This document shows positions 5,211-25,254 of a stretch of 27,719 bases of DNA, piece by piece. This stretch comes from an uncultured Lachnospiraceae bacterium (GTDB lineage Bacteria > Bacillota > Clostridia > Lachnospirales > Lachnospiraceae). The notes under the pieces were generated by a model that worked only from the letters and a program-made list of their open reading frames with translations, ran no database searches and was not told the origin of the DNA. The DNA lies in NCBI GenBank assembly GCA_937915975.1, contig CALGGL010000362.1:1-27719 (forward strand), given 5' to 3'. Positions within the stretch are counted from its first letter, which is position 1, and each line of letters starts with the position of its first letter. Made by a program: the position numbers and the translations under genes.

Positions 5211-5212
5211 AA

Positions 5213-5647: not shown

Positions 5648-5660
5648 TACTATTTATTCT

Positions 5661-6376: not shown

Positions 6377-6410
6377 AATAAATTAAAGAAAAAGTTAGGA
6401 AAGAAAAGAT

Positions 6411-8033: not shown

Positions 8034-8059
8034 AAAGCCAGTATTTAAGCCGGTTTTTT
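8033..8059 (+). terminator. Probable lysS terminator
   Basis: AAAAGCC (8033-8039) can pair with GGTTTTT (8052-8058), with one G-U pair, across a 12-nt loop; the right arm is itself a run of six T. It starts on the last base of the lysS stop codon. The stem is short and weak. Confidence 0.45.
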
Positions 8060-8188
8060 GAGACGAAATTGTAATAAATACGGCAGGAGTAATGCAAAAT
8101 TCCGCATTACGATACCTAATAATTACCAATAATGCTTTTTTCGCATACTAATAAGAATACTTGAATTAAGATTCAAGGAAGTGATTAG
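8060..8188. other. Host-element junction region with small hairpins
   Basis: This stretch between lysS and parB has no gene. It holds small inverted repeats: GTAATGC (8089-8095) with GCATTAC (8104-8110), and CTTGAAT (8160-8166) with ATTCAAG (8171-8177). The left end of the conjugative element should lie here, because lysS is the last housekeeping gene and parB the first element gene. I cannot place the attachment site without the right end. Confidence 0.4.
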
Positions 8189-8231
8189 AAGTCACATTTC
8201 TAAAAGAAATTTTAGAAATGTGACTTTTTTT
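8189..8231 (+). terminator. Strong Rho-independent terminator before parB
   Basis: A perfect 17-bp stem (8189-8205 with 8210-8226) closed by a GAAA loop and followed by a run of seven T (8225-8231). It would isolate the element's first gene from transcription coming out of lysS. Because the left arm is preceded by few A residues, it works best on the + strand. Confidence 0.9.
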
Positions 8232-8272
8232 GTTGGAACTTGAACTCCCGAAAAAAATTGAGGTGAAGCATT

Positions 8273-9250
8273 ATGGAAGAAAGAAGCAGAAAACGAGTAA
8301 AGATAATCGGTTTTGATGGTGTATTTGGAATGGATCACACCGAAGAGGATAAGGTAATGGATATTGAATTATCCGAGCTGTATGAATTCAAGGATCATCC
8401 GTTCCGAGTATGTGATGATAAGAAGATGTATGATCTGGCAGAAAGTATCAAAACATATGGCGTTCTTACTCCGGGGATTGTTAGACCGAGGAAAGGTGGC
8501 GGATATGAGATTATTTCCGGTCACAGACGAAAGCGTGCATCAGAGATAGCAGGTAAATCTAAGATGCCTGTATTTTGCAAGAATTATACAGATGATGAAG
8601 CAACCGTTGTTATGGTAGATGCCAATCTCCAGAGGGAAGAAATTGTACCGAGTGAAAAGGCTTTTGCCTACAAGATGAAATATGAGGCTATGAAAAGGAC
8701 TAAGAAAAGAGGCGATGGCAGGACATTACATAATATAGGAGTCCAAAATGGAGAGAGTCAGAAAACCATACAGAATTATATATGGCTTACAAGACTTAAT
8801 TCTGAACTGATGGGTATGGTAGATGCAGGAGAGATTGGAATTAAACAGGCGGTAAATCTTTCGTTTATCAGTATAAAAGGGCAGGAGATTATAAGGGAGA
8901 TATTGACAGAAAATAATTGCAATATATCTTATGGAATGTCAAAGCGATTGAGAGAGATTACGGAAGATGAATTTACGAGAGACAATGTGTTGAAAATCAT
9001 AAATCCGGCGCATGCTACAGCCAAGCAAGAAATCCGGAAAGACATACATATAGATTTTACAGCAGATGAAATAAAATGCTTTTTCCCAAACGATAGTTCT
9101 GTAGAAGAAATAAAGGAAAGTATCATAGAAATGCTTAATGAGAAGTGTGGCAACGGTTGCCACAAATCAGATACAGAGAAGTGTGGCAACGGTTGCCACA
9201 AATCAAACAATGGAAAGAGTCAACAGGATACGAATATGAAAGGGGAATAA
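8273..9250 (+). CDS. ParB-family partition protein with a duplicated C-terminal Cys/His unit
   Basis: A 325-residue ParB/Spo0J-type DNA-binding protein, expected to load on a centromere-like site and help segregate the excised element or regulate it. The N-terminal ParB domain covers about residues 30-125, with the CTP-binding motif in the form GHRRKRAS at 83-90 and NLQREEI at about 118-124. A helix-turn-helix region follows (about 130-200: KTIQNYIWLTRLNSELMGMVDAGEIGIKQAVNLS). GAGGTGA stands before the ATG. The C-terminus is odd: the 12-residue unit EKCGNGCHKSDT occurs at 290-301 and again as EKCGNGCHKSNN at 302-313, each encoded over a perfect 19-bp DNA palindrome. Canonical chromosomal Spo0J lacks this tail. 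It is the first gene of the element. Confidence 0.85.
   Translation: MEERSRKRVKIIGFDGVFGMDHTEEDKVMDIELSELYEFKDHPFRVCDDKKMYDLAESIKTYGVLTPGIVRPRKGGGYEIISGHRRKRASEIAGKSKMPVFCKNYTDDEATVVMVDANLQREEIVPSEKAFAYKMKYEAMKRTKKRGDGRTLHNIGVQNGESQKTIQNYIWLTRLNSELMGMVDAGEIGIKQAVNLSFISIKGQEIIREILTENNCNISYGMSKRLREITEDEFTRDNVLKIINPAHATAKQEIRKDIHIDFTADEIKCFFPNDSSVEEIKESIIEMLNEKCGNGCHKSDTEKCGNGCHKSNNGKSQQDTNMKGE
9140..9205. repeat. Two direct repeats, each with a perfect 19-bp palindrome, inside parB
   Basis: A 30-bp sequence occurs at 9140-9169 and, identical, at 9176-9205 (period 36 bp). Each copy contains TGTGGCAACGGTTGCCACA, at 9146-9164 and 9182-9200, which is two 9-bp arms around a central G. It is not the Spo0J parS consensus. 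I saw no third copy in the window. It may be the binding site for the ParB that it lies within. Confidence 0.9.
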
Positions 9251-9254
9251 TCAT

Positions 9255-10691
9255 ATGGGACAAATGCTTATAGAGGTACATCCGGAGTTAGAGAGTGAGT
9301 GGTCAGATAAGAATGAAGGAATAAATATTATGGATATAAGCTATGGCTCAAATAAGGAAATCTGGTGGAAAGGTTCTTGTGGGCATGTTTGGCAGGCTTC
9401 ACCAAAGAGCAGATCAAATGGTAGTGGTTGCCCCTATTGTTCTGGCAAACAAGTGTTAAAAGGCTTCAATGACCTTGCAAGTAAGTTCCCGGAGTTAAAG
9501 GAGGAATGGTCTAAAAAAAATAGTATTCTTCCTGATAGTGTAACCACTGGTTCCCATAAGAAGGTTATTTGGAAAGGCAGATGTGGTCATGAATGGACAG
9601 CAATCATTAAGAATCGTGTAAAAGGTGCAGGATGCCCTTATTGTGCAAGTGTTAAGGCATTAAAGGGATTTAATGATTTACAGAAAATCAGTCCGGAAAT
9701 TGCAGAAGAATGGTCTGACAGAAATAAGTTAAAACCATACGAAGTCTTACCTAATTCTAATCAGAAGGTATGGTGGAAATGTAAAAATGGTCATGAATGG
9801 CGAACGACACCGGCAATTAGAATGATGGGGAGCAGATGTCCATATTGCAGCAATATACGGGTAATGGGAGGATTTAATGATATAACGGTAACTAATCCTC
9901 TTATAGCAAATGAATGGAGTGAAAAAAACGAGCCAATTCAAGCTAACACTATAAGAAATACTAACAGACAAAGATTCTGGTGGAAATGCAGTTCTTGTGG
10001 TTATGAGTGGAAGAAATCACCTTACTCAAGAGTGAATGGTTCAGGATGCCCCGTGTGTGACGGAAGAATTGTGCAAGAGGGTATCAATGATTTAGGGACG
10101 ATAGCACCGGATATTGCCAAAGAATGGCATACATATAAAAATGGAGAGCTAACCCCGTCATCTGTCAGCGGAAAGTCGGCAAAATATGTATGGTGGAGAG
10201 GCAGATGCAAACATGAATGGCGGGCGAGGGTTGTTGATAGAGCATATGGTAAGGAACCATGTCTTATCTGTCAAAAAGAGTATGAGTATAACAAAGATAA
10301 ATTCATTACGGAATATTATTTGACGAATAATGAAGTAGCTTTCATAGACAATGATATGGAAGAAATTGGAATACCGATTGATTTATACATACCGGATAAG
10401 AGAATAGCAATTATTTATAGGAAGCAGAATCCAACAACCTATTATGAGGAAAGAAAGGAGTTTGTCAAAAAAGAACTGTGTAGGAAAGCTAAAATACGAA
10501 TGATTTATGTATTAGAGAAAGGGGTGATAGCCGACAAGAATGTTATATGTATTTCAAAGGAAGATGATTCCATCGAAGCAACAGAAGATGTAATGTATAG
10601 TCTTTGTGAAATCATTGGATTGCGGATGCAAATTAACATTAAGGAAGATAGTAGTGAAATTATGCGTAGATTTTTTGAAGAAAGAAAATAG
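9255..10691 (+). CDS. Five-repeat zinc-ribbon protein with degenerate PD-(D/E)XK-like C-terminus
   Basis: The 478-residue protein starts 4 bp after the parB stop, so it is probably co-expressed. Residues 6 to about 340 are five repeats of about 65-70 residues, each with an xxEWSxKN start, a WWK segment, a C-G-H-E-W half-site and a CPYC half-site. Metal ligands: C42/H44/C59/C62; C110/H112/C127/C130; C176/H180/C195/C198; C245/C248/C265/C268; C318/H320/C336/C339. This matches the probable zinc-ribbon family PF14311 (DUF4379). The C-terminal part (about 345-478) has IPIDLYIPDKRIAIIYRK, which resembles the core of VSR/PD-(D/E)XK nucleases, but the usual second acidic residue is Ile and no downstream W/H motif is seen, so it may be inactive. 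Role unknown; nucleic-acid binding is likely. Confidence 0.8.
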   Translation: MGQMLIEVHPELESEWSDKNEGINIMDISYGSNKEIWWKGSCGHVWQASPKSRSNGSGCPYCSGKQVLKGFNDLASKFPELKEEWSKKNSILPDSVTTGSHKKVIWKGRCGHEWTAIIKNRVKGAGCPYCASVKALKGFNDLQKISPEIAEEWSDRNKLKPYEVLPNSNQKVWWKCKNGHEWRTTPAIRMMGSRCPYCSNIRVMGGFNDITVTNPLIANEWSEKNEPIQANTIRNTNRQRFWWKCSSCGYEWKKSPYSRVNGSGCPVCDGRIVQEGINDLGTIAPDIAKEWHTYKNGELTPSSVSGKSAKYVWWRGRCKHEWRARVVDRAYGKEPCLICQKEYEYNKDKFITEYYLTNNEVAFIDNDMEEIGIPIDLYIPDKRIAIIYRKQNPTTYYEERKEFVKKELCRKAKIRMIYVLEKGVIADKNVICISKEDDSIEATEDVMYSLCEIIGLRMQINIKEDSSEIMRRFFEERK

Positions 10692-10788
10692 GGGCATTAA
10701 AGTACCCTAAGTTTCAAAAATGAGTATTGGCAGTCGCTTACTTATGCTACGAGATGTGATATTTTATTATTAATAAATTAAATATTGC

Positions 10789-11085
10789 AATACAAGCTTA
10801 GTTACGAAAGTAATCGTAGGAGCAGATATTCGGTAATGAGCCAGACAAAATCCGGTCATAATGTGCGAAGCGGTTGAAGGATATCAATAGCCGAAAGGCA
10901 TAGCACAAAAGGTAAGGTTAAGTAGTTACTGAATGGATTCTCACAATGGGCGGCAATCCCGTCCTAATCCTCAAAATGGCATAAGAGGAAATCAATGGAT
11001 TGTGAAAGTCTCAGCTTGTATTCCCAAGTGTACGGGCGACGAGGAACAAGGTACACATACATAGCCTAAAAGGTTAATTGCTATG
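10789..11085 (+). ncRNA. Candidate structured RNA in a 418-bp gene-free stretch
   Basis: Positions 10692-11109 contain no credible gene but many consistent helices. A 10-bp closing helix pairs AATACAAGCT (10789-10798) with AGCTTGTATT (11013-11022). Inside it lie TTAC-GAAA-GTAA (10802-10813), TGTGC/GCACA (10862-10866/10903-10907) enclosing GCC-GAAA-GGC (10890-10899), TCACAAT/ATTGTGA (10941-10947/10999-11005) and TCCTC/GAGGA (10968-10972/10985-10989). After it come GTGTAC/GTACAC (11028-11033/11051-11056) and CATAGC/GCTATG (11060-11065/11080-11085). GTCGC (10733-10737) may also reach GCGAC (11036-11040). It ends just before the ribosome site of the Cys-rich gene, so it may be a long regulatory leader, an independent RNA, or a group II intron relic (GTGCG at 10863 but no domain V seen). 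Family not recognised. Confidence 0.5.
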
Positions 11086-11109
11086 AAATAGACGACGAGG
11101 AGGGCATGT

Positions 11110-11658
11110 ATGATGACCAGAGAAGAAATGATTGAGCAACCTGTGACAGAACAGGGGACTTCCTCCGATAAGCTTAGAAACAATCATAGGATATTAGATG
11201 ATTTGTTAAATAAAGAGTTTGATATAGATGCGTATGATGTTTTAAAGGAAGAAGTCTTTATCGGAATTATTGACAGCATCAATATGAAGATAAAAATCGG
11301 CAACAAAGGAAAGCCAAAAAATGAGCAGGAAGAATATCTCAATAAGGAATATCTTTTAAGCAGATACCGTAAAATCCGACGAAAGCAGGAAATACAAAAA
11401 TTTCGGGAGTTACATGACTGCAAATATTGTACGAGATATAGAGAAACAAATTCTTGCAAAGCGGTTGAACAATGTCCATTTGATGATGGGTATCGTAAAG
11501 ATGATAAGGTAAAGGATCAAACCTGTTCAAAACATCCGGATGGCAGATGTCCATATGCAGGAGAAAACGGAACTTGTATAGGATTTTGTATGCTTGATAT
11601 CTTAAATGTCATGGGAAAACAAAGAAAACGATATGCAAAGGAGATACAAGATGGATAA
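11110..11658 (+). CDS. Cys-rich hypothetical protein upstream of parM
   Basis: I do not recognise this 182-residue protein. The N-terminal half is helical and charged, with a basic stretch around 86-100 (RYRKIRRKQEIQK). The C-terminal half is a compact eight-cysteine region: C104, C107, C116, C122, C139, C147, C156 and C160, with CKYC, CPF and CPY motifs, which suggests two metal sites (zinc or Fe-S). GAGGAGGG at 11097-11104 serves either ATG at 11110 or the next at 11113. Its last 8 bp overlap the parM start, indicating translational coupling and a role linked to partition or its control. The structured RNA lies directly upstream. Confidence 0.75.
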   Translation: MMTREEMIEQPVTEQGTSSDKLRNNHRILDDLLNKEFDIDAYDVLKEEVFIGIIDSINMKIKIGNKGKPKNEQEEYLNKEYLLSRYRKIRRKQEIQKFRELHDCKYCTRYRETNSCKAVEQCPFDDGYRKDDKVKDQTCSKHPDGRCPYAGENGTCIGFCMLDILNVMGKQRKRYAKEIQDG

Positions 11659-12559
11659 CATAGAAGTAATAGGAATTGATCATGGATTTAGTCAAATGAA
11701 AACAGTAAGTTCCACATTTACAAGTGGTGTGGCAGAGATAACGACTGAGCCGGCGTTCTTTGATGATGTTCTTGAATATAAGGGCAGGTTTTATAAGATA
11801 GGCGGATCAAGAATGGAGGTAAGAGCTACAAAGACAGAGACAGATGAATATTATCTGCTTACATTGGCTGCAATAGCAAAAGAGCTTCATAAGCGAGGTA
11901 AAAGAAAAGCAAATGTTGTGTTGGCGGTAGGTTTACCGGCCACACGTTACGGAGACGAGAAGCAGGATTTTATAGATTACTTATCAAGAAATAAAGACGT
12001 ATGCTTCAGATTTGAACAGTATGACTATCATGTAAATATCGTTAAGGTTTCTGCATATCCTCAATGCTATGCAGCAGTAGTAGATCGAATTGGAACATTT
12101 GGTACAAAGGTCGTGGTTGTTGATATCGGCTCATGGACGATAGATATTATACCGGTAATTAACAGAAAGCCGGACGATGCTAAGACAAATACCATTCAGC
12201 AGGGCTTGATTACCTGTATGAGAGATATTAACAAGCAGAGTGTCCGAAAGCTTGGTGATGAAATAGATGAAACAGATATACAGCATTACATGATACACGG
12301 AACAAGTTCATTGCCGCAAGAGTACATCGAAATCATAGATAAGTCTTTAAAAGAATTTACAGCTATGATATACAATTCTTTGAGAGAAGAAAAATATAAT
12401 ATGAAGACCACACCATTTGTATTCGTCGGTGGTGGAGCAGTAGTAATGAAGAACTTCGGAGGATATGAGCAGGGAAATATCAGTTATAATTTTGATGTCA
12501 GGGCAAATGCGAAGGGTTATGAGACATTAGCAAGGATATCAATGAGAAAGGAATTGTAG
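11651..12559 (+). CDS. parM: ParM-like actin-family segregation ATPase
   Basis: The 302-residue protein resembles ParM/StbA-type actin-like ATPases, which form filaments that push plasmid copies apart. The phosphate-1 loop is VIGIDHGFSQMK at 6-17, phosphate-2 is VVVDIGSWTIDI near 153-164, and the adenosine-binding FVFVGGGAVVM is near 255-265. A longer frame opens at 11606, but I place the start at 11651 because AAAGGAG lies 6-7 bp before it and the protein then begins just ahead of the first actin motif, as in the family. It overlaps the Cys-rich gene by 8 bp and is followed 12 bp later by a ParR-like gene, the usual parMR arrangement. Confidence 0.9.
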   Translation: MDNIEVIGIDHGFSQMKTVSSTFTSGVAEITTEPAFFDDVLEYKGRFYKIGGSRMEVRATKTETDEYYLLTLAAIAKELHKRGKRKANVVLAVGLPATRYGDEKQDFIDYLSRNKDVCFRFEQYDYHVNIVKVSAYPQCYAAVVDRIGTFGTKVVVVDIGSWTIDIIPVINRKPDDAKTNTIQQGLITCMRDINKQSVRKLGDEIDETDIQHYMIHGTSSLPQEYIEIIDKSLKEFTAMIYNSLREEKYNMKTTPFVFVGGGAVVMKNFGGYEQGNISYNFDVRANAKGYETLARISMRKEL

Positions 12560-12571
12560 GGAGGCGGTATT

Positions 12572-13021
12572 ATGAATGGAAAAAATGTTGTGCAGCATAA
12601 TCTCAGATTGAGTTTGTACAATCCGGAGCATGTGTTGATACATCAAACTTTAAAGGATTTAAACCTTGATATTCATAAATCCATCAATAATTTTATCATT
12701 GAAGCACTCTTGCATTACATTAAAGGAACTGCACCTGAACAGCTTACCAATTCTGCCAAAGAGGATGAGGAAAACAGGCAGGGATATCTGACGAGAAAAG
12801 AGTTTGATGATGCTGTACCATCAATTATTAATTCTGTTATTGCAAGAGTAAACAAAGAACTTTTATCCACCTTGTTTACAACAATGATAAGAGAAAATAT
12901 TAAAGTGCCGGATAATAGCAGAGCAATGATTGAAAATTATGAAACAGATAATGCTGCAGAATATGGAATGTCTAAAGAGGTTGCAGATACTTTATCGGCT
13001 CTTGCTGATCAATGGTCATAA
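12572..13021 (+). CDS. ParR-like adaptor (putative ribbon-helix-helix protein)
   Basis: A 149-residue protein placed directly after parM, where the ParR centromere-binding adaptor normally sits. The first 50 residues (NLRLSLYNPEHVLIHQTLKDLNLDIHKSINNFIIEALLHYI) have the look of a ribbon-helix-helix fold: a short strand, then two amphipathic helices. The rest is polar and helical, as expected for the filament-contacting tail. GGGAGG at 12560-12565 precedes the ATG. Identification rests on position and fold pattern rather than on a clear sequence motif. I did not find an obvious set of short direct repeats (parC) upstream of parM. Confidence 0.65.
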   Translation: MNGKNVVQHNLRLSLYNPEHVLIHQTLKDLNLDIHKSINNFIIEALLHYIKGTAPEQLTNSAKEDEENRQGYLTRKEFDDAVPSIINSVIARVNKELLSTLFTTMIRENIKVPDNSRAMIENYETDNAAEYGMSKEVADTLSALADQWS

Positions 13022-13067
13022 GCAAGATGTGTTTTGACAGGTTGTGTATGAAAGGAGGTGTATTCCT

Positions 13068-13151
13068 ATGTATAAACTATTTCGAAGCTATTTGAAGAAG
13101 AGGCGGCTTGTACGATATTATTTCGCATATTGCAAGATGATTGGCGTATAA
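13068..13151 (+). CDS. 27-residue basic peptide, possible leader peptide
   Basis: A short frame behind an ideal ribosome site, AAAGGAGGTG at 13051-13060. The peptide has 27 residues, begins MYKLFRSYLKKRRLVRYY and is strongly basic and aromatic (five Tyr, eight Lys/Arg). It does not look like a membrane toxin because it lacks a hydrophobic run. The frame sits between the ParR-like gene and the lipoprotein gene. GCGGCTT inside the frame (13103-13109) can pair with AAGCCGC just after its stop (13154-13160), and a GNRA hairpin follows, so translation could influence downstream folding. Confidence 0.5.
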   Translation: MYKLFRSYLKKRRLVRYYFAYCKMIGV

Positions 13152-13177
13152 ATAAGCCGCAAATGCATGTAAACTGA

Positions 13178-13203
13178 ATATAGTCTGCGAAAGTAGACTG
13201 TAT
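13178..13203 (+). promoter_or_regulatory. GNRA-capped hairpin in the lipoprotein leader
   Basis: ATATAGTCTGC (13178-13188) pairs with GTAGACTGTAT (13193-13203) through 11 bp including two G-U pairs, capped by GAAA. No U-run follows. It lies between the 27-residue peptide and the lipoprotein start. Confidence 0.5.
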
Positions 13204-13248
13204 GTGAGGAATCGCCAGTTTATCTTTCGCAGAGAAAGGATACTGGTG

Positions 13249-14040
13249 ATGATTATGAAAAAGAATATTATGATAATGATATCTGTAATGATGATAGCTC
13301 TTTCCGGATGTGGAAAGGTCAATGATATAGAAGTAGTCAGTGCCGATACGGAACAGGCTATAGTAACCGGAGAAGAAGATGCGAAGATCACAACTGTTGA
13401 AGCCGATGTTGTCAGCACAGAGGAGATAGGGTATGAAGATATAACAACTGACGAAGTTTCGACAGTAGAAAAGGAAGTTGCAGGCTCGTTGAAAAAACAA
13501 GAAGAGCCAGCAAAGGATCTTAATAAGTCAGAGGATGCAACAACCGGTGCAAGTCAAATGTCAAGTGACACAGGTACTACGGAAGAATATATTGCACCAG
13601 TGACGGAGACAACGGTTTCAGATGTTCCGACAACAGAAGAACAGACAACAGAAGCGAATGTGACAGAAGCTCCGGTCTCTTATATAGCTGCATACAGTCC
13701 TCAGAGTGTGGTATCTCTTGCTACATCTAAATGCATAGCCGGTGGAATGATACGAACAACAGATAATCTTGATAATCTGCTTGCTGAAGGTTCAATCACG
13801 CAGGAAGAGTATAATTCTTATTATCCGTATGATGGACTTGGCTACTACAGTGTATTTGTAGAAACTGACCTTAATATCGCCGCTACGGTGTCTGGCAGAT
13901 CTCTTAGGAGCGAGGATGAAATAGCTACACACATTGCGAATATGCTTTTGCTTGAGCGTGAGCCATATTTCCTGATTGAGTATGCTGGTGTATATAATTC
14001 CGGAGGTACGGATTTTTACGAGTTTCGTTGTTACAGATAA
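13249..14040 (+). CDS. Lipoprotein with Thr/Glu-rich linker and C-terminal domain
   Basis: From the ATG at 13249 (AAAGGA 8 bp upstream) the product has 263 residues; a longer frame begins at 13204 but would bury the signal peptide. The signal is short and Met/Ile-rich and ends in a classic lipobox LSGC with C21. Residues about 25-145 are low-complexity (Thr, Glu, Val, Asp), a typical wall-spanning linker. The last 120 residues form an unrecognised globular domain (from about VSYIAAYSPQSVVSLATSKC to the end) with no catalytic motif visible. It directly precedes the sortase-anchored adhesin, so a surface role linked to it is plausible. Confidence 0.75.
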   Translation: MIMKKNIMIMISVMMIALSGCGKVNDIEVVSADTEQAIVTGEEDAKITTVEADVVSTEEIGYEDITTDEVSTVEKEVAGSLKKQEEPAKDLNKSEDATTGASQMSSDTGTTEEYIAPVTETTVSDVPTTEEQTTEANVTEAPVSYIAAYSPQSVVSLATSKCIAGGMIRTTDNLDNLLAEGSITQEEYNSYYPYDGLGYYSVFVETDLNIAATVSGRSLRSEDEIATHIANMLLLEREPYFLIEYAGVYNSGGTDFYEFRCYR

Positions 14041-14070
14041 TCAAATATATAAATAAACAATCACATTACG

Positions 14071-14110
14071 AAGAAGATATGAGCCATAAGGTTTGTATCT
14101 TCTTTTTTTT
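14071..14110 (+). terminator. Terminator between lipoprotein and adhesin
   Basis: A 15-bp stem with several G-U pairs (14071-14085 with 14090-14104) around an ATAA loop, followed by eight T (14103-14110). Its loop region CCATAAGG resembles the hairpin after the adhesin gene. Confidence 0.85.
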
Positions 14111-14133
14111 ATGCAAAAGGGAGGATTGATAGC

Positions 14134-17100
14134 ATGAGAATAAAACATAAGTTCAAACGATATTTAGCAGGTCTGCTTGCAATCGTAACATTAGTGACAT
14201 CAATGGTGGGGTATGTTCCGGTTTATGCAGCAAGTGAGACATCTACAATCGGACTCTGGTATGCATCGGCAAGACCACATGCTGCTGTAAATGAATTTAA
14301 TTCAAGTCATACTGGACATATCTTTTATACAAAGGTAGATAATCAGGTTGGTTATTGTATGAATTTTGGCTTGGAGGCTCATAGTGGAAGATTATACAAT
14401 AGTTCCGATCAGACGATGCTTACAACATTGTCAGATAAGCAGGACAAGCTGCTTGCATACTGTTTATACTATGGACACTCAAAAGATAATATAAGCACAG
14501 GACCGTCGAATGCTGAAAGCAATGAATATATAGCAACGCAGGCTGTAGTCTGGATTATAATGTATGACATATTCGGAACATCCGGGGCGGATAGTGCTGC
14601 TTATACACTTTGTCAGAGTGCTCCTGATCCATCAGCGTCTTATGAGTATTATAAGTCGTTAAGGGATAAAATTAGTACAGCTTATAACCAGACTATTCCG
14701 AGTTTCGCATCAAAAAGGAAGAGTTCAGCAGAAACCTATGAGCTTAAATGGAATGAAACAAATCAGAGATTTGAGATTACCTTAAACGACCAGAACGGTA
14801 TTTTATCTGAGTTTGACTTTGCTATCAGTGGATATAATGTCGAGAAAGATGGTAATAATCTAACCATTTCTAAGGCAACTGTTGATACAACTGTTACAGA
14901 GGGTAGTTTTACATCTAATAACGGTAAGGTTGAGGCAACATCAAGTGTTGTCTTTTGGGTGTGTGGGGATGCTTCACAACAGGAGTTCGCATCTGACAGA
15001 CCACAGGTTGATCCGCTATATGCTTATATCAATGTCAAGACAGAAGAGATTGGCTATGGATATTTAATTAAAGTGGATAGTGAAACTGGATCTAAGCTCC
15101 CGAATGCCACTTATGGCATTTATTCGGATAGCGGATGTAGTAAGTTAGTAGATACGCTTGTTACCGGTACAGATGGCACAGCTAAGTCAAAGGAGTTAGT
15201 AGCAGGAACATACTATGTTAGGGAAATCAAGGCACCACAGGGATATGTATTAAGCCCGGATATCCATACAGTTGTTGTTAAGGCCGGACAGACAACCGAA
15301 TTTACCGAAAAGGACACAGAGCAAAGAGGAGCTATTACCATCTATAAAGAGGGAGAAGTTCTTACAGGGTGGAACGGAACAAATTTTGTATATGAGTTGA
15401 AACGATTACCGGGTGCTACATTTAAGGTAACAGCGGGTGCAGATATCATCAGATCAGACGGTACAAAAGTATATAACAGAGGCGATATCGTCAGAGAGGG
15501 ACTTGTTACCGGAAGTGACGGTAGTGTAGTGCTCAATAATCTGTATTTGGGTACTTATGTAGTGACTGAGACAAAGAGCATAGACGGATACACAATCAAC
15601 AATACGCCTATGACAGTTACGATTACTTATAAAGATCCGACAGCAACCGTACAATACGAGTCAGCTACAATAAAGAATAATAGACAGAAAGCGGAAGTGA
15701 ATGTAATCAAGACTGATGGTACAACATCCAATCCGTTAAAGGGTGGAGAATATACACTGTATGCCGGAAATGATATTAAGAATTATGCAGGCACAACGAT
15801 TATGTCAAGAGGAACGAAGATACAAACCGTAACAACAGGGAGTGATGGCAATGCGAAATATACTGTAGATATACCGGTTGGGAACAGTTATTATATCAAC
15901 GAAACAAAAGCTCCATATGGGTATGTTAGAAATTCGTCAGATACTTTTAATTTCTCTTTTACACCATTAAGCCAGAGTGAAGCAAAGGCATATTTCAAGC
16001 ACACATTTAAGAATGATTGTGTTACAGCTAAGATTCATCTTTATAAGATAGACAAGGAAACCGGAAAGGCTGTTCCACAGGGCGATGCGAGATTAGAGGG
16101 GGCAAAATATGGGTTATATGCGAGAGAGGATATCGTACATCCTGATGGGACAACGGGAGTGATTTATAAAAAGGATTCTCTGATTGCAGAACTTACAACA
16201 GATAAGAATGCGGAAGCAGAGATAAAGGGCTTATATCTTGGGAAATACTATATCAAGGAAATTGAGCCACCGGTTGGTTATAATCTGGATACAGAAGAGC
16301 ATGATGTAGAGTGTTCTTATGAGGGAGATAAGGTAACAGAGGTTTCTCGAACTACCACTTCTAAAGAAACTGTTATTAAGCAGCCGTTTCAGCTTATAAA
16401 GGTATCGGAAGATGGTAATGAAACAGAAGCAGAGGTGTTAAAAGGAGCCGGATTTACTGCATATCTGAAGTCCTCTCTTACTAAAGATAGTGAGGGGCAT
16501 TATGATTTTACTCAGGGGATTCCAGTTGTGATTGGAGAGAATGGGGCAACAACGATTTATACGGATGAAAAGGGATATGCAAAAACAATTCCGATTCCAT
16601 ATGGAACATATATCGTTGTCGAGTCTGTTACGCCGCATAACATGGATACGATTAAACCTTTTGAAGTTGTTATCTCTAAGAACAGTCCAAATGAGCCGCA
16701 GGTATGGAGAATTTTCTTAGATAGAGAATTTTCGGCAAAACTGCGAATCGTAAAAAAGGATGCGGAGACCGGAAAGACGATTCTTCTTCCGGATACGGAA
16801 TTTCAGATCTATAACAAGGATACCGGAAAGTATGTTGAGATTATCACAACTTATCCGTCAAAGGTAGTGCATAAGACATTTGTAACGGATGAGGATGGAG
16901 ATTTGATATTACCGGAAACATTACCGATAGGTAATTACAGGATAGAGGAACTTCATGCTCCGGATGGATATATAAGAAATAGTAATTTCGCGGATGTAAC
17001 GATTGATTCTGATACATTTCATGAGGTTGATCCGGATACCTTTGAGGCGATTATTACAGTAGATTATAAAAATGAATCGGCAAAGGGAGAACTTACGGTA

Positions 17101-19527
17101 GAAAAGAAAGGCGAGGTACTTGATGACTATGAGGGCGGCTGGTTTGCGGACTCTGAAGAAAAGACTTTTACCTATCGAATGGGAAGCCTTGCAGGTGCGG
17201 AGTTTGAGGTGAGAGCTGCCGAGGATATCTATACTCCTGATTATCAGTTGGACAAAAACGGAAACCGAATAAAGATATATGCCAAAGGGGACTTAGTTAC
17301 AAAGTTGACTACAAACGAAACAGGTAAAGCAAAAGTCGGAAATCTGCCGCTTGGAGCTTATAATGTAAAAGAGATAAAGGCACCATATGGATATTTGCTT
17401 TCTCCACAGGAGCAGACAGTGTTTTTTTCCTATGTTGATGAGGACACACCTGTTGTTTATGAAAGTCGTGTTTTTAGCGACGAGAGAGAAAAAGTAGAGA
17501 TTCAGGTTGAAAAAAGAGATGCAGAAGATGATAGAGCGATTGAGGGGGCTGTATTTGGACTATATGCAGCGGAAAATATAAAGAATGTAGATGGAACAAC
17601 CATTGTAGATAAGGGGGATCTTATTGAGCAGGCTGCTTCTGATAAAGATGGAGTGGTTATCTTCTTAAAAGATATACCATTTGCCCAATATGAGGTTAAG
17701 GAACTTGCTGCTCCTGACGGGTATGTATCCAGCGACGAGATATTATCCTATGAAACAAAATATGTAGCGCAGGATATTCCGGTTGCAAAGTATAGCAGTG
17801 TATTCCTAAATACGCCTACGACATTTGAGTTTAGTAAGGAAGATATTACAAGTGGAGCTGAGCTTGATGGTGCAACACTTTCTGTCCTTAATGAAGACGG
17901 AGAAGTTGTTGAGACATGGACATCAAAGGCGAAAGAAAAACATGTGATAAAAAGGCTTGTAGTCGGAAAGACATATACGCTTAGAGAAGAATTTGCTCCA
18001 TATGGATATCTTAGAGCTACAGATGTTACATTTACTGTCCTTGATGAAGAAACCGTTCAATCGGTGGTCATGCGGGATGAAGTTCCGACAGGTTCTATTG
18101 TAATCAATAAGGACGGAGAATTTCTGGCGGATGTTACTCTTGTAAAGGGTAAATGGTATGATGCAATATTTAACTATTTTAGAGATCCGGTTGATGGTGT
18201 TGAATTTGAACTATATGCAGCAGAAGATATTGTAAGCTATGATGGACTTGGAACTGTATATTTTCAAAAGGACGAGTTAGTTGATACTCTTATTACCAAT
18301 GAGAAAGGAGTTGCAGCAAAGGGCAATCTGCCAATAGGAAAATATTATCTGATAGAAACTAAAACAAAAGAGGGCTTTATTAGAGATACGGAGAGAAAAG
18401 AGGCTGATTTAAGCTATATCAATCAGGAAACAAAGGTAATATATGCCGGTATGCAGATCACAAACAATCGACAAAAGGTTAAAATCTCAATCCTTAAAAC
18501 TGATGCGGAGGACGGTGTTAAACTGGAGGGAGCAATCTTCGGTATTTTTGCAAAGGAGAATATTATCGGAAAAGATGAAAAGGTAGTCTTTGAAAAGGAC
18601 TGCGAGCTTGAAAGAGCTGTTACGGATTCAGAGGGAAGCATAATCTTTACAGCAGATCTTCCACTTGGTGAGTATTATGTCAAAGAACTGCAAGCTCCGA
18701 AAGGATATGCATCAACTGATGTTATATATGATATCTCTGCAACTTATCAAGGTGACGATATAGAGTTTATTGAGTTTTCTTACGAGTTTAAGAACAGTCC
18801 CATAACTGTTGAATTTAGCAAAACCGATATCACCGGAGATATCGAGCTTGAGGGTGCAAAGCTTATAATCATTGATGCAGATGGAAAGACTGTTGAAAGT
18901 TGGACTTCTACAAAGGATATTCATACAGTTAAAAGACTTGCGGTTGGTAAGTATATTCTTCGGGAGGAAACATCTCCGTATGGATATAAAATAGCAAATG
19001 ATATTGAGTTTGAAATCTTAGATTCCGGAGATATTCAGAAAGTGGAAATGCGAGATGAATATGTATTCGGTAAAATCAAGATTAAGAAGCGAGATGCAGA
19101 ACTTAGTCAGATACTTCTTGATGGAGTTACCTTTGAGATAAGAGATGCAGAGGGGAATGTTCTTGATACCATAACGACGGATCAGATAGGCGAGGCATTA
19201 TCAAAAGAACTGCCTATATGCACCTATATTGACGGAGTGTATGATAAGGATATCGTATATACAGTTGTTGAGGTAAAGACTAAAGAGGGGTATATTATTG
19301 ACTGTACACCGCATGAGGTTGTATTGAAGTATTCGGATACAGCGCCGGATATCATAGAATATACATTGGAACTTACCAACAAATCGGAAGTACCGAAAGT
19401 GCCAAAAACAGGCGATGATTTTAACCCGGTTATCTGGATACTGATTGGAACTACCGCATTACTCTTTGCTGTAATGGCGTTTATATTCCATATAAAAAAA
19501 GAGGATGAGGATCAACTCCCTGATTAA
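14134..19527 (+). CDS. Giant SpaA-repeat adhesin with N-terminal thioester domain and sortase signal
   Basis: The 1797-residue protein is a covalently wall-anchored surface adhesin. A signal peptide ends near residue 33 (VYAAS). Residues about 35-290 form a TQXA/thioester domain: the likely thioester pair is C75 (GYCMNFG) and Q136 in ATQAVVW; such domains bind host surfaces covalently in Gram-positive adhesins. About thirteen SpaA/Cna-B type domains follow, each with an E-box-like motif, for example YYVREIKAPQGY, YYINETKAPYGY, YNVKEIKAPYGY and YYVKELQAPKGY, expected to form intramolecular isopeptide bonds. A three-domain block is duplicated (residues about 985-1319 and 1320-1645). The C-terminus is a sortase signal VPKTG at 1756-1760, then a membrane helix and charged tail. 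GGGAGG precedes the ATG. No sortase gene is in the window. Confidence 0.92.
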   Translation: MRIKHKFKRYLAGLLAIVTLVTSMVGYVPVYAASETSTIGLWYASARPHAAVNEFNSSHTGHIFYTKVDNQVGYCMNFGLEAHSGRLYNSSDQTMLTTLSDKQDKLLAYCLYYGHSKDNISTGPSNAESNEYIATQAVVWIIMYDIFGTSGADSAAYTLCQSAPDPSASYEYYKSLRDKISTAYNQTIPSFASKRKSSAETYELKWNETNQRFEITLNDQNGILSEFDFAISGYNVEKDGNNLTISKATVDTTVTEGSFTSNNGKVEATSSVVFWVCGDASQQEFASDRPQVDPLYAYINVKTEEIGYGYLIKVDSETGSKLPNATYGIYSDSGCSKLVDTLVTGTDGTAKSKELVAGTYYVREIKAPQGYVLSPDIHTVVVKAGQTTEFTEKDTEQRGAITIYKEGEVLTGWNGTNFVYELKRLPGATFKVTAGADIIRSDGTKVYNRGDIVREGLVTGSDGSVVLNNLYLGTYVVTETKSIDGYTINNTPMTVTITYKDPTATVQYESATIKNNRQKAEVNVIKTDGTTSNPLKGGEYTLYAGNDIKNYAGTTIMSRGTKIQTVTTGSDGNAKYTVDIPVGNSYYINETKAPYGYVRNSSDTFNFSFTPLSQSEAKAYFKHTFKNDCVTAKIHLYKIDKETGKAVPQGDARLEGAKYGLYAREDIVHPDGTTGVIYKKDSLIAELTTDKNAEAEIKGLYLGKYYIKEIEPPVGYNLDTEEHDVECSYEGDKVTEVSRTTTSKETVIKQPFQLIKVSEDGNETEAEVLKGAGFTAYLKSSLTKDSEGHYDFTQGIPVVIGENGATTIYTDEKGYAKTIPIPYGTYIVVESVTPHNMDTIKPFEVVISKNSPNEPQVWRIFLDREFSAKLRIVKKDAETGKTILLPDTEFQIYNKDTGKYVEIITTYPSKVVHKTFVTDEDGDLILPETLPIGNYRIEELHAPDGYIRNSNFADVTIDSDTFHEVDPDTFEAIITVDYKNESAKGELTVEKKGEVLDDYEGGWFADSEEKTFTYRMGSLAGAEFEVRAAEDIYTPDYQLDKNGNRIKIYAKGDLVTKLTTNETGKAKVGNLPLGAYNVKEIKAPYGYLLSPQEQTVFFSYVDEDTPVVYESRVFSDEREKVEIQVEKRDAEDDRAIEGAVFGLYAAENIKNVDGTTIVDKGDLIEQAASDKDGVVIFLKDIPFAQYEVKELAAPDGYVSSDEILSYETKYVAQDIPVAKYSSVFLNTPTTFEFSKEDITSGAELDGATLSVLNEDGEVVETWTSKAKEKHVIKRLVVGKTYTLREEFAPYGYLRATDVTFTVLDEETVQSVVMRDEVPTGSIVINKDGEFLADVTLVKGKWYDAIFNYFRDPVDGVEFELYAAEDIVSYDGLGTVYFQKDELVDTLITNEKGVAAKGNLPIGKYYLIETKTKEGFIRDTERKEADLSYINQETKVIYAGMQITNNRQKVKISILKTDAEDGVKLEGAIFGIFAKENIIGKDEKVVFEKDCELERAVTDSEGSIIFTADLPLGEYYVKELQAPKGYASTDVIYDISATYQGDDIEFIEFSYEFKNSPITVEFSKTDITGDIELEGAKLIIIDADGKTVESWTSTKDIHTVKRLAVGKYILREETSPYGYKIANDIEFEILDSGDIQKVEMRDEYVFGKIKIKKRDAELSQILLDGVTFEIRDAEGNVLDTITTDQIGEALSKELPICTYIDGVYDKDIVYTVVEVKTKEGYIIDCTPHEVVLKYSDTAPDIIEYTLELTNKSEVPKVPKTGDDFNPVIWILIGTTALLFAVMAFIFHIKKEDEDQLPD

Positions 19528-19545
19528 AAAATAAATATGTGAATG

Positions 19546-19580
19546 AAAGAGGATGTAAGTCATAAACTTATGTCCTCTTT
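19546..19580 (+). terminator. Hairpin after the adhesin gene
   Basis: A 15-bp stem (19546-19560 with 19566-19580, two G-U pairs) around a CATAA loop. The right arm ends in TTT, then GTTTATT, a poor U-run, so termination may be partial. Confidence 0.6.
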
Positions 19581-19624
19581 GTTTATTAAAAATGAGGGTA
19601 ATAAGCTCTCGGAAAGGAGTAAAT

Positions 19625-20566
19625 ATGGATGTGCATGGTTTAGTTATGGTTATTGAAAACAATAAGGGTTATGAGTATAACTATCTGCTTGATGAAAAAA
19701 CTGCTATGAAGAAAATCATAGAATTAGCGGCTGATATGGATGATGAAGTGTACGAGTTTTTGATTGAGCTTCAGAGTTCCAATACGATTGCAGATATTCA
19801 GAGAAATAATAATGTTCCGCAATGGGCCACATTATATCTTAAGCCAAATGAGACCATATCTATTGCTATCCCGCATACGCAGGGAGAACTTGCAGGGTTC
19901 TTAAAGGGTGAATGTAACGACAAGGAGGATATGTGGGAGTTTAGCAAAGAACGTTGCAGCATATGGGCACTTGATATGCTGAATGCATTGAAAATAACAA
20001 CTTCCGGAGATGTTCTGGGATATCCGGAGTGCTCATATAAACATGTGAATTTTGAATTTAAGCAGGGGCAGGAGCTTATGAATCTGAATGGAAGCTGCTA
20101 CAAGATTCTACAAGTGCTGTCACCAACTAACTTATTACTGTTTGATATGAATAGTAGTCAGTTTGTAGTAGGACTTGGCACGAGCTTATTTGAAAGAAGA
20201 TATAAGCAGATGCCGGATGTTCTTCCGGTCTTTGGCATTGAGTGGGAAAGAGGTGTCTATCTTGGCAATACGCCATCATGTATAGATTTCTCTCTTATCA
20301 GGATGGAGTATGGAACTTATACGGAGCCGGAAACTCTTACAGAGTATAGGAAGAAAGTAAGTGAGGATTTCTTGGCTCTTCAGAAGATTACTGTGAATCC
20401 ATTTTATCCGGAAAAGGTACGGGAAGCAGCCAAAGACTCTATGTACCAACGCTATATGACCGGAAAGAGAGAAGTGTTTTATGACAATCTTGGTTCCGGT
20501 AAATATGACGATGGATTTCATCAGGAAAAAGATGAAGTGATCGAAGAAAAAAGCATTAGGAGGTAA
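19625..20566 (+). CDS. Conserved ICE protein of unknown function
   Basis: I do not recognise this 313-residue protein by function. The frame opens at 19592, but AAAGGAG at 19614-19619 points to the ATG at 19625 (MDVHGLVMVIENNKGY). It has no signal peptide or membrane segment and looks cytosolic. Visible features: a mixed alpha/beta body, YLKPNETISIAIPHTQGE near residue 80, and SSQFVVGLGTSLFERRYKQ near 180-200; the C-terminal 60 residues are charged and helical. It is separated by 7 bp from the DUF5688-like gene, so the two are probably co-translated. Position between cargo and the transfer genes suggests an element maintenance or accessory role. Confidence 0.7.
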   Translation: MDVHGLVMVIENNKGYEYNYLLDEKTAMKKIIELAADMDDEVYEFLIELQSSNTIADIQRNNNVPQWATLYLKPNETISIAIPHTQGELAGFLKGECNDKEDMWEFSKERCSIWALDMLNALKITTSGDVLGYPECSYKHVNFEFKQGQELMNLNGSCYKILQVLSPTNLLLFDMNSSQFVVGLGTSLFERRYKQMPDVLPVFGIEWERGVYLGNTPSCIDFSLIRMEYGTYTEPETLTEYRKKVSEDFLALQKITVNPFYPEKVREAAKDSMYQRYMTGKREVFYDNLGSGKYDDGFHQEKDEVIEEKSIRR

Positions 20567-22248: not shown

Positions 22249-23220
22249 ATGGATGGAAGATTTACAAGCGAGGAACTCGCTATTGCAAAGTCAACAGATC
22301 TTGTGGAAGTAGCATCAAGACTTGGATATACGCCGCAGAAGATAGGAAAGTATTATACACTGAAAGAAATGGATTCCATACGTATCTATAACAGAAGTCA
22401 TTGGTATAGATGGTCTGGAAAGAATGTGAATGGACATAGTGGCGGATCACAGATTGATTTTTTACAGGAGTTTGCAGATATGGATGTAAAAGACGCTGTA
22501 TTCTGGCTGCTTGATTTATGCGGCTATAAGAGGTCGGAAAGTATAAAACCGGTATTGAAACATCAGATAAGTGCGATGTCTGCTCCGAGAAAGGAATTTG
22601 TATTGCCAAAGGCAAATATAGATAACAATCGCATTTATCAGTATCTGAGTAAGGACAGAGGACTTAGTAAGGATATTATAGATTATTTCGTAAATAAAGG
22701 TCTGATATACGAGAGTGAGAATTATCATAATGCTGTATTTAAAGGAAATGACAAGAATGGAGTAACAAGATTTGCGAGTATGAGAGGTATCTATGATAGA
22801 GACGGTAAGAAATTTCGATGTGATGTAGCAGGGAATGATAAAAGATATGGCTTTAATGTCCATTCGGAAGCAAGTGATGAGGTTAATGTCTTTGAAGCCT
22901 GCATTGACATGATGAGTTACATGGATATCTTTGGAGTAACGAATGTTAATTGTGTTGCACTTGGAATGACAGGCGATGCTCCTCTTGAAACATTTTTGAA
23001 GGAGTATCCGCATATCCGGTTAATTCGGTTTTGCCTTGATGGAGATGAGCCGGGAATGGATGCCATGATGAAATATCATCAGAAATACATTGCAGCAGGT
23101 TATGAAGTGATAGTCTCTCCACCACCGGTTGGACATAAGGATTATAATGAGTGGCTTGTCAGCACGAAAGGGAAGTTAAATACTATAAAAAAATCCTATG
23201 ATACAGAAAAAGTGCTATGA
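22249..23220 (+). CDS. Toprim-domain primase-like protein (DUF3991/Toprim)
   Basis: The 323-residue protein has an N-terminal primase-like region (about 5-85, with GRFTSEELAIAKSTDLVEVASRLGYTP and HSGGSQIDFLQEF) in which the CHC2 zinc cysteines are missing, a DUF3991-like middle (about 125-200), and a Toprim fold: the catalytic Glu in VFEACIDMM (about 214) and the DxD in CLDGDEPGMD (about 262). Such proteins are thought to prime complementary-strand synthesis of transferred DNA. The last 12 codons (IKKSYDTEKVL) already belong to the 32-bp repeat array that follows, so the C-terminal tail probably arose from, or gave rise to, those repeats. Confidence 0.88.
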   Translation: MDGRFTSEELAIAKSTDLVEVASRLGYTPQKIGKYYTLKEMDSIRIYNRSHWYRWSGKNVNGHSGGSQIDFLQEFADMDVKDAVFWLLDLCGYKRSESIKPVLKHQISAMSAPRKEFVLPKANIDNNRIYQYLSKDRGLSKDIIDYFVNKGLIYESENYHNAVFKGNDKNGVTRFASMRGIYDRDGKKFRCDVAGNDKRYGFNVHSEASDEVNVFEACIDMMSYMDIFGVTNVNCVALGMTGDAPLETFLKEYPHIRLIRFCLDGDEPGMDAMMKYHQKYIAAGYEVIVSPPPVGHKDYNEWLVSTKGKLNTIKKSYDTEKVL

Positions 23221-23396
23221 AAAAGTTCTATCATTTTGACAGAATGCTATGAAAAAGTCCTGCCATGATTTGAGTGTCAATGAAAGGTTGGAAACAGATG
23301 CTATAAAAAAGTCCTATCACTTTGGCAGAATGCTATGAAAAAGTTATATTACTTTGGAAAATTGTTATGAAAAAGTCCTACCATTATCGTTAAAAT
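23183..23396. repeat. 32-bp repeat array (iteron-like)
   Basis: Units with the core CTATGAAAAAGTCCTA begin at 23183, 23215, 23247, 23301, 23333 and 23365, so the spacing is exactly 32 bp except for one gap of 54, which holds a degenerate 22-bp unit at 23279-23300. The first twelve bases of each unit are best conserved. The first unit lies inside the primase gene. There are no spacers, so it is not CRISPR. Location just before the mobC region suggests an origin or protein-binding array. Confidence 0.92.
23217..23393 (+). other. Chain of four ATGA-coupled micro-ORFs within the repeat array
   Basis: Each repeat contains CTATGA, so the TGA of one frame overlaps the ATG of the next. The chain is: primase stop 23218-23220 overlapping ATG 23217; 23217-23252 (MKKFYHFDRML); 23249-23338 (29 residues, starting MKKSCH and ending IKKSYHFGRML); 23335-23370 (MKKLYYFGKLL); 23367-23393 (MKKSYHYR). 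Differences between copies are largely conservative or silent (H/Y, R/K, M/L). No own ribosome sites exist, so translation would need termination-reinitiation. A 32-bp repeat containing ATGA would generate such a chain by geometry alone, so translation is unproven. Confidence 0.4.
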
Positions 23397-23424
23397 TATA
23401 TTTAGAGTAAATATAGACGGGGTT

Positions 23425-23478
23425 TTAGGGGTGTCCCCTAACAAGAATGCGAAACCTATATAGGTTTTGCGTATCTTG
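23425..23478. other. Candidate oriT: two inverted repeats upstream of mobC
   Basis: First, TTAGGGG (23425-23431) and CCCCTAA (23435-23441) form a tight palindrome. Second, a stem from 23442-23459 with 23460-23478 (centre CCTATATAGG, two G-U pairs and one bulge) spans about 18 bp. Both lie 33-86 bp before mobC and after the repeat array, the usual place of oriT for MobC/relaxase pairs. The nick position cannot be given. Confidence 0.55.
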
Positions 23479-23510
23479 CAGTCCAACAGGGAATAGGAGG
23501 TGGTTAATAG

Positions 23511-23840
23511 ATGAGCGAGAAAAAAACGGTTCAAAAGCTAATTCTTATGACTAAAACTGAGGCACAGGAACTGGAGAAAAAAGCTAAAGAGGTTAATATG
23601 TCAGTCGGGGCTTATATAAGACTTAAAGTAAAAGAAAGACCGAATGACTATCCGGAGATAAGAAAACTTCTGGGAGATACAATCAATGAGATAAATCACA
23701 TAGGAAATAATATCAACCAGATAACAAAGAACAACAATTCCTCGCTCTATCTTCCGGAGGATAAGGAGAGGCTGATTGCTTACATGATGAGAGTGTCACA
23801 TCGTATGGATGAGGTGGTGAGGGAGCTTGGCAATATGTAA
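23511..23840 (+). CDS. mobC: MobC-like relaxosome accessory protein
   Basis: A 109-residue protein of the MobC family, which binds oriT and helps the relaxase open the strands. The N-terminal part (KKTVQKLILMTKTEAQELEKKAKEVNMSVGAYIRLKVKE) is a ribbon-helix-helix-like DNA-binding region. The C-terminal part contains the typical INEINHIGNNINQITKNNNS stretch (about 60-80). AGGAGGTGG stands before the ATG. Its end overlaps the relaxase frame by 14 bp, so the two are translationally coupled. The inverted repeat upstream is its likely binding site. Confidence 0.9.
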   Translation: MSEKKTVQKLILMTKTEAQELEKKAKEVNMSVGAYIRLKVKERPNDYPEIRKLLGDTINEINHIGNNINQITKNNNSSLYLPEDKERLIAYMMRVSHRMDEVVRELGNM

Positions 23841-25254
23841 GATACTTCATATGAAAGATTGTACGACAGCAGTTCATAGCAGGCATCTGAAAAGGACCAT
23901 TGACTATATTAAGAATGGTGAAAAGACGCAGGAACAAATAAAGGTAGGTGCGGTAAACTGTCAGCCGGATAATGCGTATGAAAAGATGATTGAAACTAAA
24001 AAGTATTTTGATAAGCTGGATGGCAGGCAGGGGTATCATATCATCATATCCTTTAAGGAGGGAGAGACCGATGCAGACACAGCCTATGAGATAACAGAAC
24101 AATTCGTGAATGAATATCTGAAAGATAATTATGAAACGGTTTTTGCAGTTCATGATAATACTGTTCATATTCATGCACATATTGTATTTAACAGTATCAG
24201 TTTTGTGACAGGTCTTAAATATCATTATAAGAAAAACGATTGGGCAAATGAGATACAACCGATTGTAAATCGAATATGTATGGAGCATGGACTATCTACT
24301 GTAGAGATTGATAAGGATGAGCCACATGACAGATACAAGGAATGGAACGATGTCAGAGATGGTGCATTTGTATGGTCGGATATGATAAAAAGAGATCTCG
24401 ATATTGCAATCGCTGAGGCAGACAGTTATGAGAATTTTATAAACATATTACAGGAGAGAGGATATGAGATAAAGCAGAATAAATATCTCGCTGTAAAGCC
24501 GAGAGGCATGACAAGATTTAGAAGATGCAAAACATTAGGCGATGATTATTCGGAGGAGGCAATCAGGGCACGAATACCAAAGGAAAATCTGTCAAATTAT
24601 AAAGGCGAAACCTTAGAGGAGGCAGAGCGAATTATATATTCCAGAATACCACGAGGGAAGCGTGCCAGACTTACACCGATACAGAAAAAATACTATACAA
24701 GGCTATACAGACTTGGACTTATTGCAAGGCGGCCATATAGTAAAGCGTGGATGTATAAAGATGATATTAAGAAAATGCACGCATTACAGAAGAAATATTT
24801 GTTTCTTGTGGAGCATGATATTGAGAGCCTCGAACAGTTAAGAGAAGTCAAGGATAGTATCTTGTCGGAAAGAGATAGCTTGTCGGAAGAGAGAAAACGA
24901 TTGAATGCGACAAAGAGAAAATGCAAAAGCCTGTTTCAAAAGGTCTCTGTTATGGAAAGATTATATGCTGCGAAGCAAGCTTATCAAAATGGAGACAAAT
25001 ATTTTGAAGAGGAACACATAAGATGGGTTGAACTTAGTAAAGAAGTTGCTAAAGAGGGTTATTCTTATGATGAAGTGCTCCGGTTAAGGGAGCATTACGA
25101 TAACGAAATTAAGCGTTATCAGGATGTTATAAAAGATGCATCAGACAAGGTTCATATTGCGGAGGCCATTATCAGAGATCTTGAAGAAGATGATATCGGC
25201 AGAAAGCAGGAAATTGAAGATAAGGAATTAGAGAAACAGCCAAAGGTAAGATAG
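23827..25254 (+). CDS. MOBP-type relaxase (mobilisation nuclease)
   Basis: This 475-residue protein nicks one DNA strand at oriT and pilots it into the recipient. The relaxase domain (PF03432-like) fills about residues 1-230: an N-terminal segment with candidate catalytic Y27 (TIDYI), and the metal-binding triad HIHAHIVFN with H114, H116, H118 and N122. The C-terminal half is helical, strongly charged and partly coiled-coil (about 320-470). The start is probably TTG at 23827, preceded by GTGAGGGAG, giving MAICKILHMKDC, a normal beginning for this family; an ATG at 23851 is the alternative. It overlaps mobC and is followed 27 bp later by the coiled-coil gene. Confidence 0.92.
   Translation: MAICKILHMKDCTTAVHSRHLKRTIDYIKNGEKTQEQIKVGAVNCQPDNAYEKMIETKKYFDKLDGRQGYHIIISFKEGETDADTAYEITEQFVNEYLKDNYETVFAVHDNTVHIHAHIVFNSISFVTGLKYHYKKNDWANEIQPIVNRICMEHGLSTVEIDKDEPHDRYKEWNDVRDGAFVWSDMIKRDLDIAIAEADSYENFINILQERGYEIKQNKYLAVKPRGMTRFRRCKTLGDDYSEEAIRARIPKENLSNYKGETLEEAERIIYSRIPRGKRARLTPIQKKYYTRLYRLGLIARRPYSKAWMYKDDIKKMHALQKKYLFLVEHDIESLEQLREVKDSILSERDSLSEERKRLNATKRKCKSLFQKVSVMERLYAAKQAYQNGDKYFEEEHIRWVELSKEVAKEGYSYDEVLRLREHYDNEIKRYQDVIKDASDKVHIAEAIIRDLEEDDIGRKQEIEDKELEKQPKVR

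Follow-up and report, generated by a model that had tools for sequence, protein, structure and literature searches.

The window analysed here, 27,719 nucleotides of contig CALGGL010000362.1 from an uncultured Lachnospiraceae bacterium, combines chromosomal-looking genes with a set of mobile genes, from which we infer that it carries an integrative and conjugative element (ICE). Its main genes and features, all on the forward strand, are as follows.

6411–8033 (+): presumably lysS, a name given from its sequence; last of the chromosomal-looking genes
8273 (+): ParB-family gene
11606–12559 (+): actin-like ATPase gene (alp; Alp/ParM type), with Pfam matches
12572–13021 (+): ParR-like gene (149 amino acids), product predicted to be ribbon-helix-helix-like; proposed binder of the repeat array
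14134–19527 (+): gene for a pilin-like LPXTG surface protein of SpaH/EbpB type (1797 amino acids)
20574 (+): DUF5688 gene
21695 (+): RadC gene
22249–23220 (+): DUF3991–TOPRIM primase-like gene (Pfam PF13154, PF13155)
23185–23396 (+): repeat array of six units in two triples, proposed parC-like ParR site
23281–23302 (+): extra 22-bp spacer between the triples, from unit comparison
23418–23480 (+): oriT-like block, composed of a GGGGTTTTAGGGGTGTCCCCTAA hairpin, the inverted repeat GCGAAACCTAT/ATAGGTTTTGC and then GTATCTTGC, with a putative nic site
23511–23840 (+): MobC/NikA-like relaxosome accessory gene (PF21983, PF05713)
23827–25254 (+): MobA/VirD2-type relaxase gene (PF03432)

The LPXTG surface protein has matches in 35 of 52 related regions and thus perhaps belongs to the core of the element rather than to its cargo. 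The chromosomal part, outside the element, holds a second 32-bp tandem repeat (5128–5207, 2.5 copies, GAATTTTTGACAAAAAAGAGAGTTTTTTGATG), whose sequence is unlike that of the array between primase and oriT.

The units of the latter array start at 23185, 23217 and 23249 and again at 23303, 23335 and 23367, giving steps of 32, 32, 54, 32 and 32 bp, and unit 1 consists of the last codons of the primase gene. The array is not a product of chance: a 24-base unit pattern (up to three mismatches) matched three times in the window and never in 100 shuffles, autocorrelation against shuffled bases reached z = 6.2 at lag 32 and z = 7.7 at lag 118, and Tandem Repeats Finder scored the array at 112. A first-pass annotation of this DNA had described six units at a 32-bp pitch beginning in the primase tail, and unit positions, shuffles and autocorrelation bear this out. 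Its additional degenerate 22-bp unit is instead the spacer that separates the two triples, so that there is no seventh repeat. A search of the window against Rfam gave no match, and nothing was found in viral contigs with either the unit pattern or the primase.

Array geometry in related elements

Genome contigs were scanned with a primase alignment; 122 relatives were detected, and the analysis continued with the best 80. Everything from the end of the primase gene to the oriT block was excised as the array, which yielded 78 (77 loci and the window) and, after merging similar ones, 47 distinct arrays; L026 and L065, where the primase end was not located, and L030, a false match where the contig breaks, had been left out beforehand. 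Units were located by a simple greedy search, some of whose picks are imperfect.

The pitch is conserved. A z score of at least 3 at lag 31–33 was found in 46 of the 47 distinct arrays, compared with 1 of 47 upstream and 2 of 47 downstream control stretches, and in the one exception (L016) the units are still 31–32 bp apart on direct comparison. The unit finder returned exactly two triples in 19 of the 47 arrays and two triples with extra upstream picks in 9 more; a distance of 43 bp separates the three triples of L073, and the remaining arrays are less regular. The step between triples, 54 bp in the window, is mostly 53–55 or 63–65 bp in the relatives. When the 80 spacings of up to 70 bp that lie outside 31–33 bp were analysed, longer ones being excluded, the best period was 10.45 bp (R = 0.58), as against R = 0.07 for 3 bp. 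A triplet-offset fit, covering 43 of the 47 arrays, adds little by itself because the offsets take mostly two values (about 118 and about 128). The core-to-oriT distances of the window and of L001, the closest among the best 80 of the 122 relatives, are 10 bp apart (37 versus 47).

By eye, each unit is built from short arms flanking an A-rich core. Many elements have inverted arms (for example, GGGGGC..GCCCCC and TGGCTAC..GTAGCCA), others have directly repeated ones (GGTGTAG, GAGTGG), and the two arms of the window are weakly related to each other; arm sequences vary widely from element to element.

We take the oriT-like block of the window to resemble MOBP nic sites. Such a block was seen in 78 of 81 sequences; of the other three, L030 is the false match, and L026 and L065 dropped out for want of a located primase end, although L026 has the block by eye. 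All 78 retained arrays are flanked by the primase gene and the oriT block, a placement that is partly by construction because these two landmarks were used for cutting. Among the 46 arrays with a recognisable core, the last core is 25–28 bp from oriT in 18. The helical phase of the array–oriT distance is suggestive only: the V-test (u = 2.19) used 17 of the 46 distances (37–77) and left out the 18 at 25–28, 10 above 77 and one of 6. Within the block itself, comparison by eye of the window and L001–L080 revealed that the letters CCAG, CTAG or CAAG before the inverted repeat covary with TATCTGG, TATCTAG or TATCTTG, pointing to base pairing over a longer stem around the putative nick site.

Covariation of the arms with the ParR-like protein

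To relate arms to proteins, regions of up to 20 kb were collected, for 52 elements at first and later for 87 (88 regions in all). alp, parR and the array occur together in 65 of the 88 regions. alp and parR are directly adjacent on the same strand in 63 of these 65 (of the other two, one has a parR frame that is too long and one an alp frame that is short), and the array lies downstream of the pair by a median of 9.4 kb (2.3–14.4 kb). No parR match was found in 20 of the 88 regions. Fifteen of these are shorter than 14 kb and five (L082, L111, L129, L141 and L161) span about 20 kb; in L082 and L111, Alp is encoded 17–19 kb upstream, and L129 (G018:C12) has primase and array, with no parR in its 20-kb region and no Alp on its contig.

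The Alp of the window passes the Pfam cut-offs for ALP_N, MreB-like_C and Alp7A_like_C (PF17989, 47.4 bits with a cut-off of 26.3; PF22128, 31.4 bits with a cut-off of 22) and matches ALP12 in the PDB (E = 4.6e-4), while its NCBIfam ParM match falls far below the cut-off of that family. The ParR-like protein of the window has no family match above cut-off, and one of 24 relatives gave an NCBIfam ParR match (E = 0.051). Its AlphaFold2 model consists of an extended N-terminus, helices at residues 18–28 and 38–52, a long helix and a further helix at the C-terminus; confidence is high for residues 11–50 only (pLDDT about 90–94; mean of the whole model, 66). Foldseek returned nothing for this model, and profile and fold searches gave no convincing solved relative. 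The ribbon-helix-helix fold is thus a prediction, drawn from a partly confident model with neither a family nor a fold match.

In 30 elements complete for every protein tested, arm similarity correlated best with the N-terminal strand of ParR (0.40; others, 0.27–0.37). Given primase, relaxase and Alp, the partial correlation was 0.25 for the ParR strand (p = 0.002) and 0.02 for the rest of ParR (p = 0.40), 0.00 for MobC, and 0.16–0.18 for Alp, primase and DUF5688 in the same 30 elements. A scan of 908 twelve-residue windows from 7 proteins placed ParR N-terminal windows at ranks 1–3 in 29 merged elements and at ranks 1, 2 and 7 in all 30, by a small margin (0.29, 0.27 and 0.27; next best, 0.27).

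Pairs of closely related elements isolate the difference further. Between L099 and L103, across about 16.4 kb (positions ~3550–19900), identity drops below 88% only at 6550–7000, which is parR, and at 16850–17200, which is the array. The two ParR proteins are 61% and the primase bodies 98.7% identical in amino acids, and DNA identity is 100% for oriT, 99% for the mobC gene and 98% for the relaxase gene. In a positive control, L098 versus L099, ParR is 99% and the array 97% identical.

A wider comparison took the 112 of 2145 pairs whose backbone proteins average 0.80 identity or more. All 42 pairs with different arms, which amount to about three independent contrasts, have ParR identities of 0.50–0.69, with Alp at 0.86–0.97, primase at 0.86–0.96, and relaxase, MobC, RadC and DUF5688 ranging from about 0.7 to 0.99. 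Among the 66 same-arm pairs the median ParR identity is 0.99, with 12 pairs below 0.75; 4 other pairs fall in between. To compare pairs at matched ParR identity (0.45–0.80), we used 36 pairs, not independent of one another, from 49 of 66 elements after merging. The strand was at 0.8 or above in 11 of 12 same-arm pairs and at 0.7 or below in 23 of 23 different-arm pairs, the pair of the window and L081 being intermediate. The area under the curve was 0.93 for the strand, 0.85 for whole ParR, 0.83 for the helices and 0.73 for the C-terminus. These comparisons of sequences support the ParR-like protein as the one that the arms follow best.

One pair runs counter to this pattern. L091 and L156 are identical (1.00) in array, MobC, primase, relaxase, RadC and DUF5688, but their ParR proteins are 45% and their Alp proteins 77% identical, the differing cassette occupying 5950–7350 of L091 as oriented. 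The alp–parR cassette of L091 has therefore changed without the array, possibly because both ParR proteins read the same array, because the swap is recent, or because the metagenome-assembled contig is chimeric.

Other candidate array binders, those named in the first-pass annotation, are disfavoured: MobC, given its partial correlation of about zero once the backbone is accounted for and no window among the top 15 of 908; the primase, given its nearly invariant body in L099 and L103 despite their different arms; and ParB, which has matches in 3 of 52 related regions, a weak exclusion because no more than 35 of these regions extend 14 kb upstream. A search for a second ParR site upstream of alp found that an array-like site stood out (rank below 0.1) in 1 of 34 elements, with a mean rank of 0.41.

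A candidate centromere and competing readings

We propose, with a probability of roughly 0.77, that an actin-type (type II) partition system on a Lachnospiraceae ICE uses the array as its parC-like centromere, a site detached from the operon and abutting oriT. ParR-like dimers (12572–13021) would bind both short arms of each 32-bp unit, and the six units, lying on one face of the helix, would assemble a ParR–DNA complex. Actin-like filaments (11606–12559) would then grip this complex, so that the excised circle is moved or held. In this way the array would serve the excised circle as its centromere and might have a further role at oriT. ParR binding, coupling to filaments and a function in segregation, and perhaps in transfer, are what we infer from the sequence comparisons.

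A tentative alternative keeps the same ParR site and gives it transfer as its main job, with the array docking or positioning the relaxosome, or regulating mobC–relaxase, and segregation being secondary. The location of the 78 arrays (in part a consequence of how they were cut) and the recurrent 25–28-bp distance from the last core to oriT are consistent with this, as is the report that ParM and ParR of R1 boost relaxase nicking and early transfer (PMC4949242). Likewise, the oriT region is bound by the ParR of NAH7, which is related to type I systems and resembles KorA (PMC12421886). However, R1 ParR lacks specific oriT binding (PMC4949242), and adjacency of array and oriT may only reflect a common non-coding slot.

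It is improbable that the units are replication iterons to which an initiator, or the primase whose gene lies just upstream, would bind. Element-specific tandem sites next to a primase-like gene do look iteron-like, and in similar-backbone pairs the primase tracks the arms as well as ParR does (0.79 versus 0.77), a correlation that is expected because the primase gene overlaps the array. Against this reading, the L099 and L103 primases are almost the same beside different arms, and, among the 7 protein families compared, the partial correlation of ParR strand windows slightly exceeds that of primase windows.

It is more improbable still that the units act as single-stranded hairpins, serving as priming sites for copying the transferred strand. 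Many units look by eye like inverted repeats round an A-rich loop (GGGGGC AGAAAGC GCCCCC), and the array lies beside oriT and the primase gene. Hairpins are not general, however, because some arrays have direct or weakly symmetric arms (by eye, directly repeated in L055 and L073 and of weak symmetry in the window), and spacing in helical turns points to duplex DNA.

The first-pass annotation had left a choice between an iteron-like array whose coding look is a by-product and a coupled series of MKKSYHFGRML micro-peptides, each short frame ending in an ATGA overlap with the next. The window has four such overlaps (23217, 23249, 23335 and 23367) and spells four peptides, MKKFYHFDRML, MKKSCHDLSVNERLETDAIKKSYHFGRML, MKKLYYFGKLL and MKKSYHYR; the last frame stops at TAA, so that the rule fails there. 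The chaining of these frames follows from an arm that reads CTATGA in the window element and a pitch of 32 (33 − 1). The comparison of homologous units that the annotation had called for went mainly against the peptides: the 32-bp pitch is kept and third codon positions are somewhat less conserved, but the ATGA chain is mostly lost and silent changes are no commoner than in the other two frames. Of the 47 arrays, 11 have ATG-start frames joined by one or more ATGA links, and only 5 have two or more (the window, with three; L001, with six; L015; L047; and L055). Silent and replacing single-base differences between units number 14 and 38 in frame in the window, versus 17 and 31 and 10 and 46 in the other frames, and 9 and 20 in frame in L001, versus 12 and 19 and 5 and 20. 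Over the 13 units of both, conservation is 0.73 at first, 0.76 at second and 0.63 at third codon positions, the sole result that leans towards coding. With the pitch kept, frame and ATGA mostly not, and spacing that follows helical turns and carries no 3-bp signal, the coding look is most likely a by-product of a DNA site, and a translationally coupled micro-peptide series is highly implausible.

Comparison with known systems and distribution

The candidate centromere can be set against known actin-type systems. The ParMRC of pCW3-like Clostridium perfringens plasmids is alike in its actin-like ATPase, its small adaptor (DNA-binding there and putatively so here), a repeated centromere of about 190–260 bp and many specificity groups among otherwise similar elements; the repeats recognised by the ParR proteins of these plasmids vary from family to family, which determines incompatibility (PMC9426499). 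There, parC has its usual place upstream of parM (PMC9426499), whereas here the array is 2–14 kb away, beside oriT, and its units differ in being 32 bp long, with two arms and helical-turn spacing. The srpMRC of SXT/R391 ICEs is also of actin type, and srpC shares an intergenic region with oriT; the hosts differ, and the array here is split from its operon (PMC4489591). A survey of chromosomal ParM systems sought ParR near ParM (PMC12270681).

The window Alp matches Alp7A/Alp12 actin-like proteins (PF22128; PDB 4apw), by remote similarity only. R1 parC belongs to the par operon. R1 parMRC resembles the present array in having two repeat groups (2 × 5), and its partition proteins also raise transfer (PMC4949242); it differs in its 11-bp repeats (PMC9426499). 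The novelty here lies in a putative centromere that has its fixed place at oriT, away from the operon, in its 32-bp, 3+3 layout with helical spacing and in the great diversity of its arms. In the literature searched, outside which most subscription papers fall, we found no description of an operon-detached centromere at oriT.

Of 397 genomes sampled from the family to which G024 belongs, 22 have a close primase homologue (E ≤ 1e-90), as do 3 of 392 genomes in an order-wide sample. Judged by these homologues, counted by primase rather than by array, the element family is not rare in one bacterial family. The Lactococcus garvieae plasmid pLG1267-optrA (L168) has a primase, a 32-bp-pitch array (lags 32, 64 and 128) and an oriT block at about 15900–16480; it also carries resistance genes and IS elements, and no alp–parR pair is annotated in the stretch fetched. 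Several elements of the family occur in single assemblies (G005, G006, G008, G014, G018, G021, G031, G041 and G046). Arms were common to none of 13 co-resident element pairs (G036 and G427, each with one array missing, were left out), a result that is uninformative on incompatibility because only 5.1% of all pairs share arms.

A more speculative extension of the proposed centromere is that it is a conjugative one. ParR beside oriT might let actin-like filaments move or hold oriT, so that a single site would both segregate the excised circle and bring oriT to the transfer channel, and the fast-changing arms might be incompatibility types that keep co-resident elements apart. The natural pairs in which array and ParR have been swapped make recognition directly testable.

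The usual picture of an integrated element is that it travels with the host chromosome. The diversified centromere of a conserved actin-type partition system, fixed beside oriT, would suggest either that the circular stage of these elements lasts so long or becomes so crowded that segregation is needed, or that segregation and transfer have common machinery.
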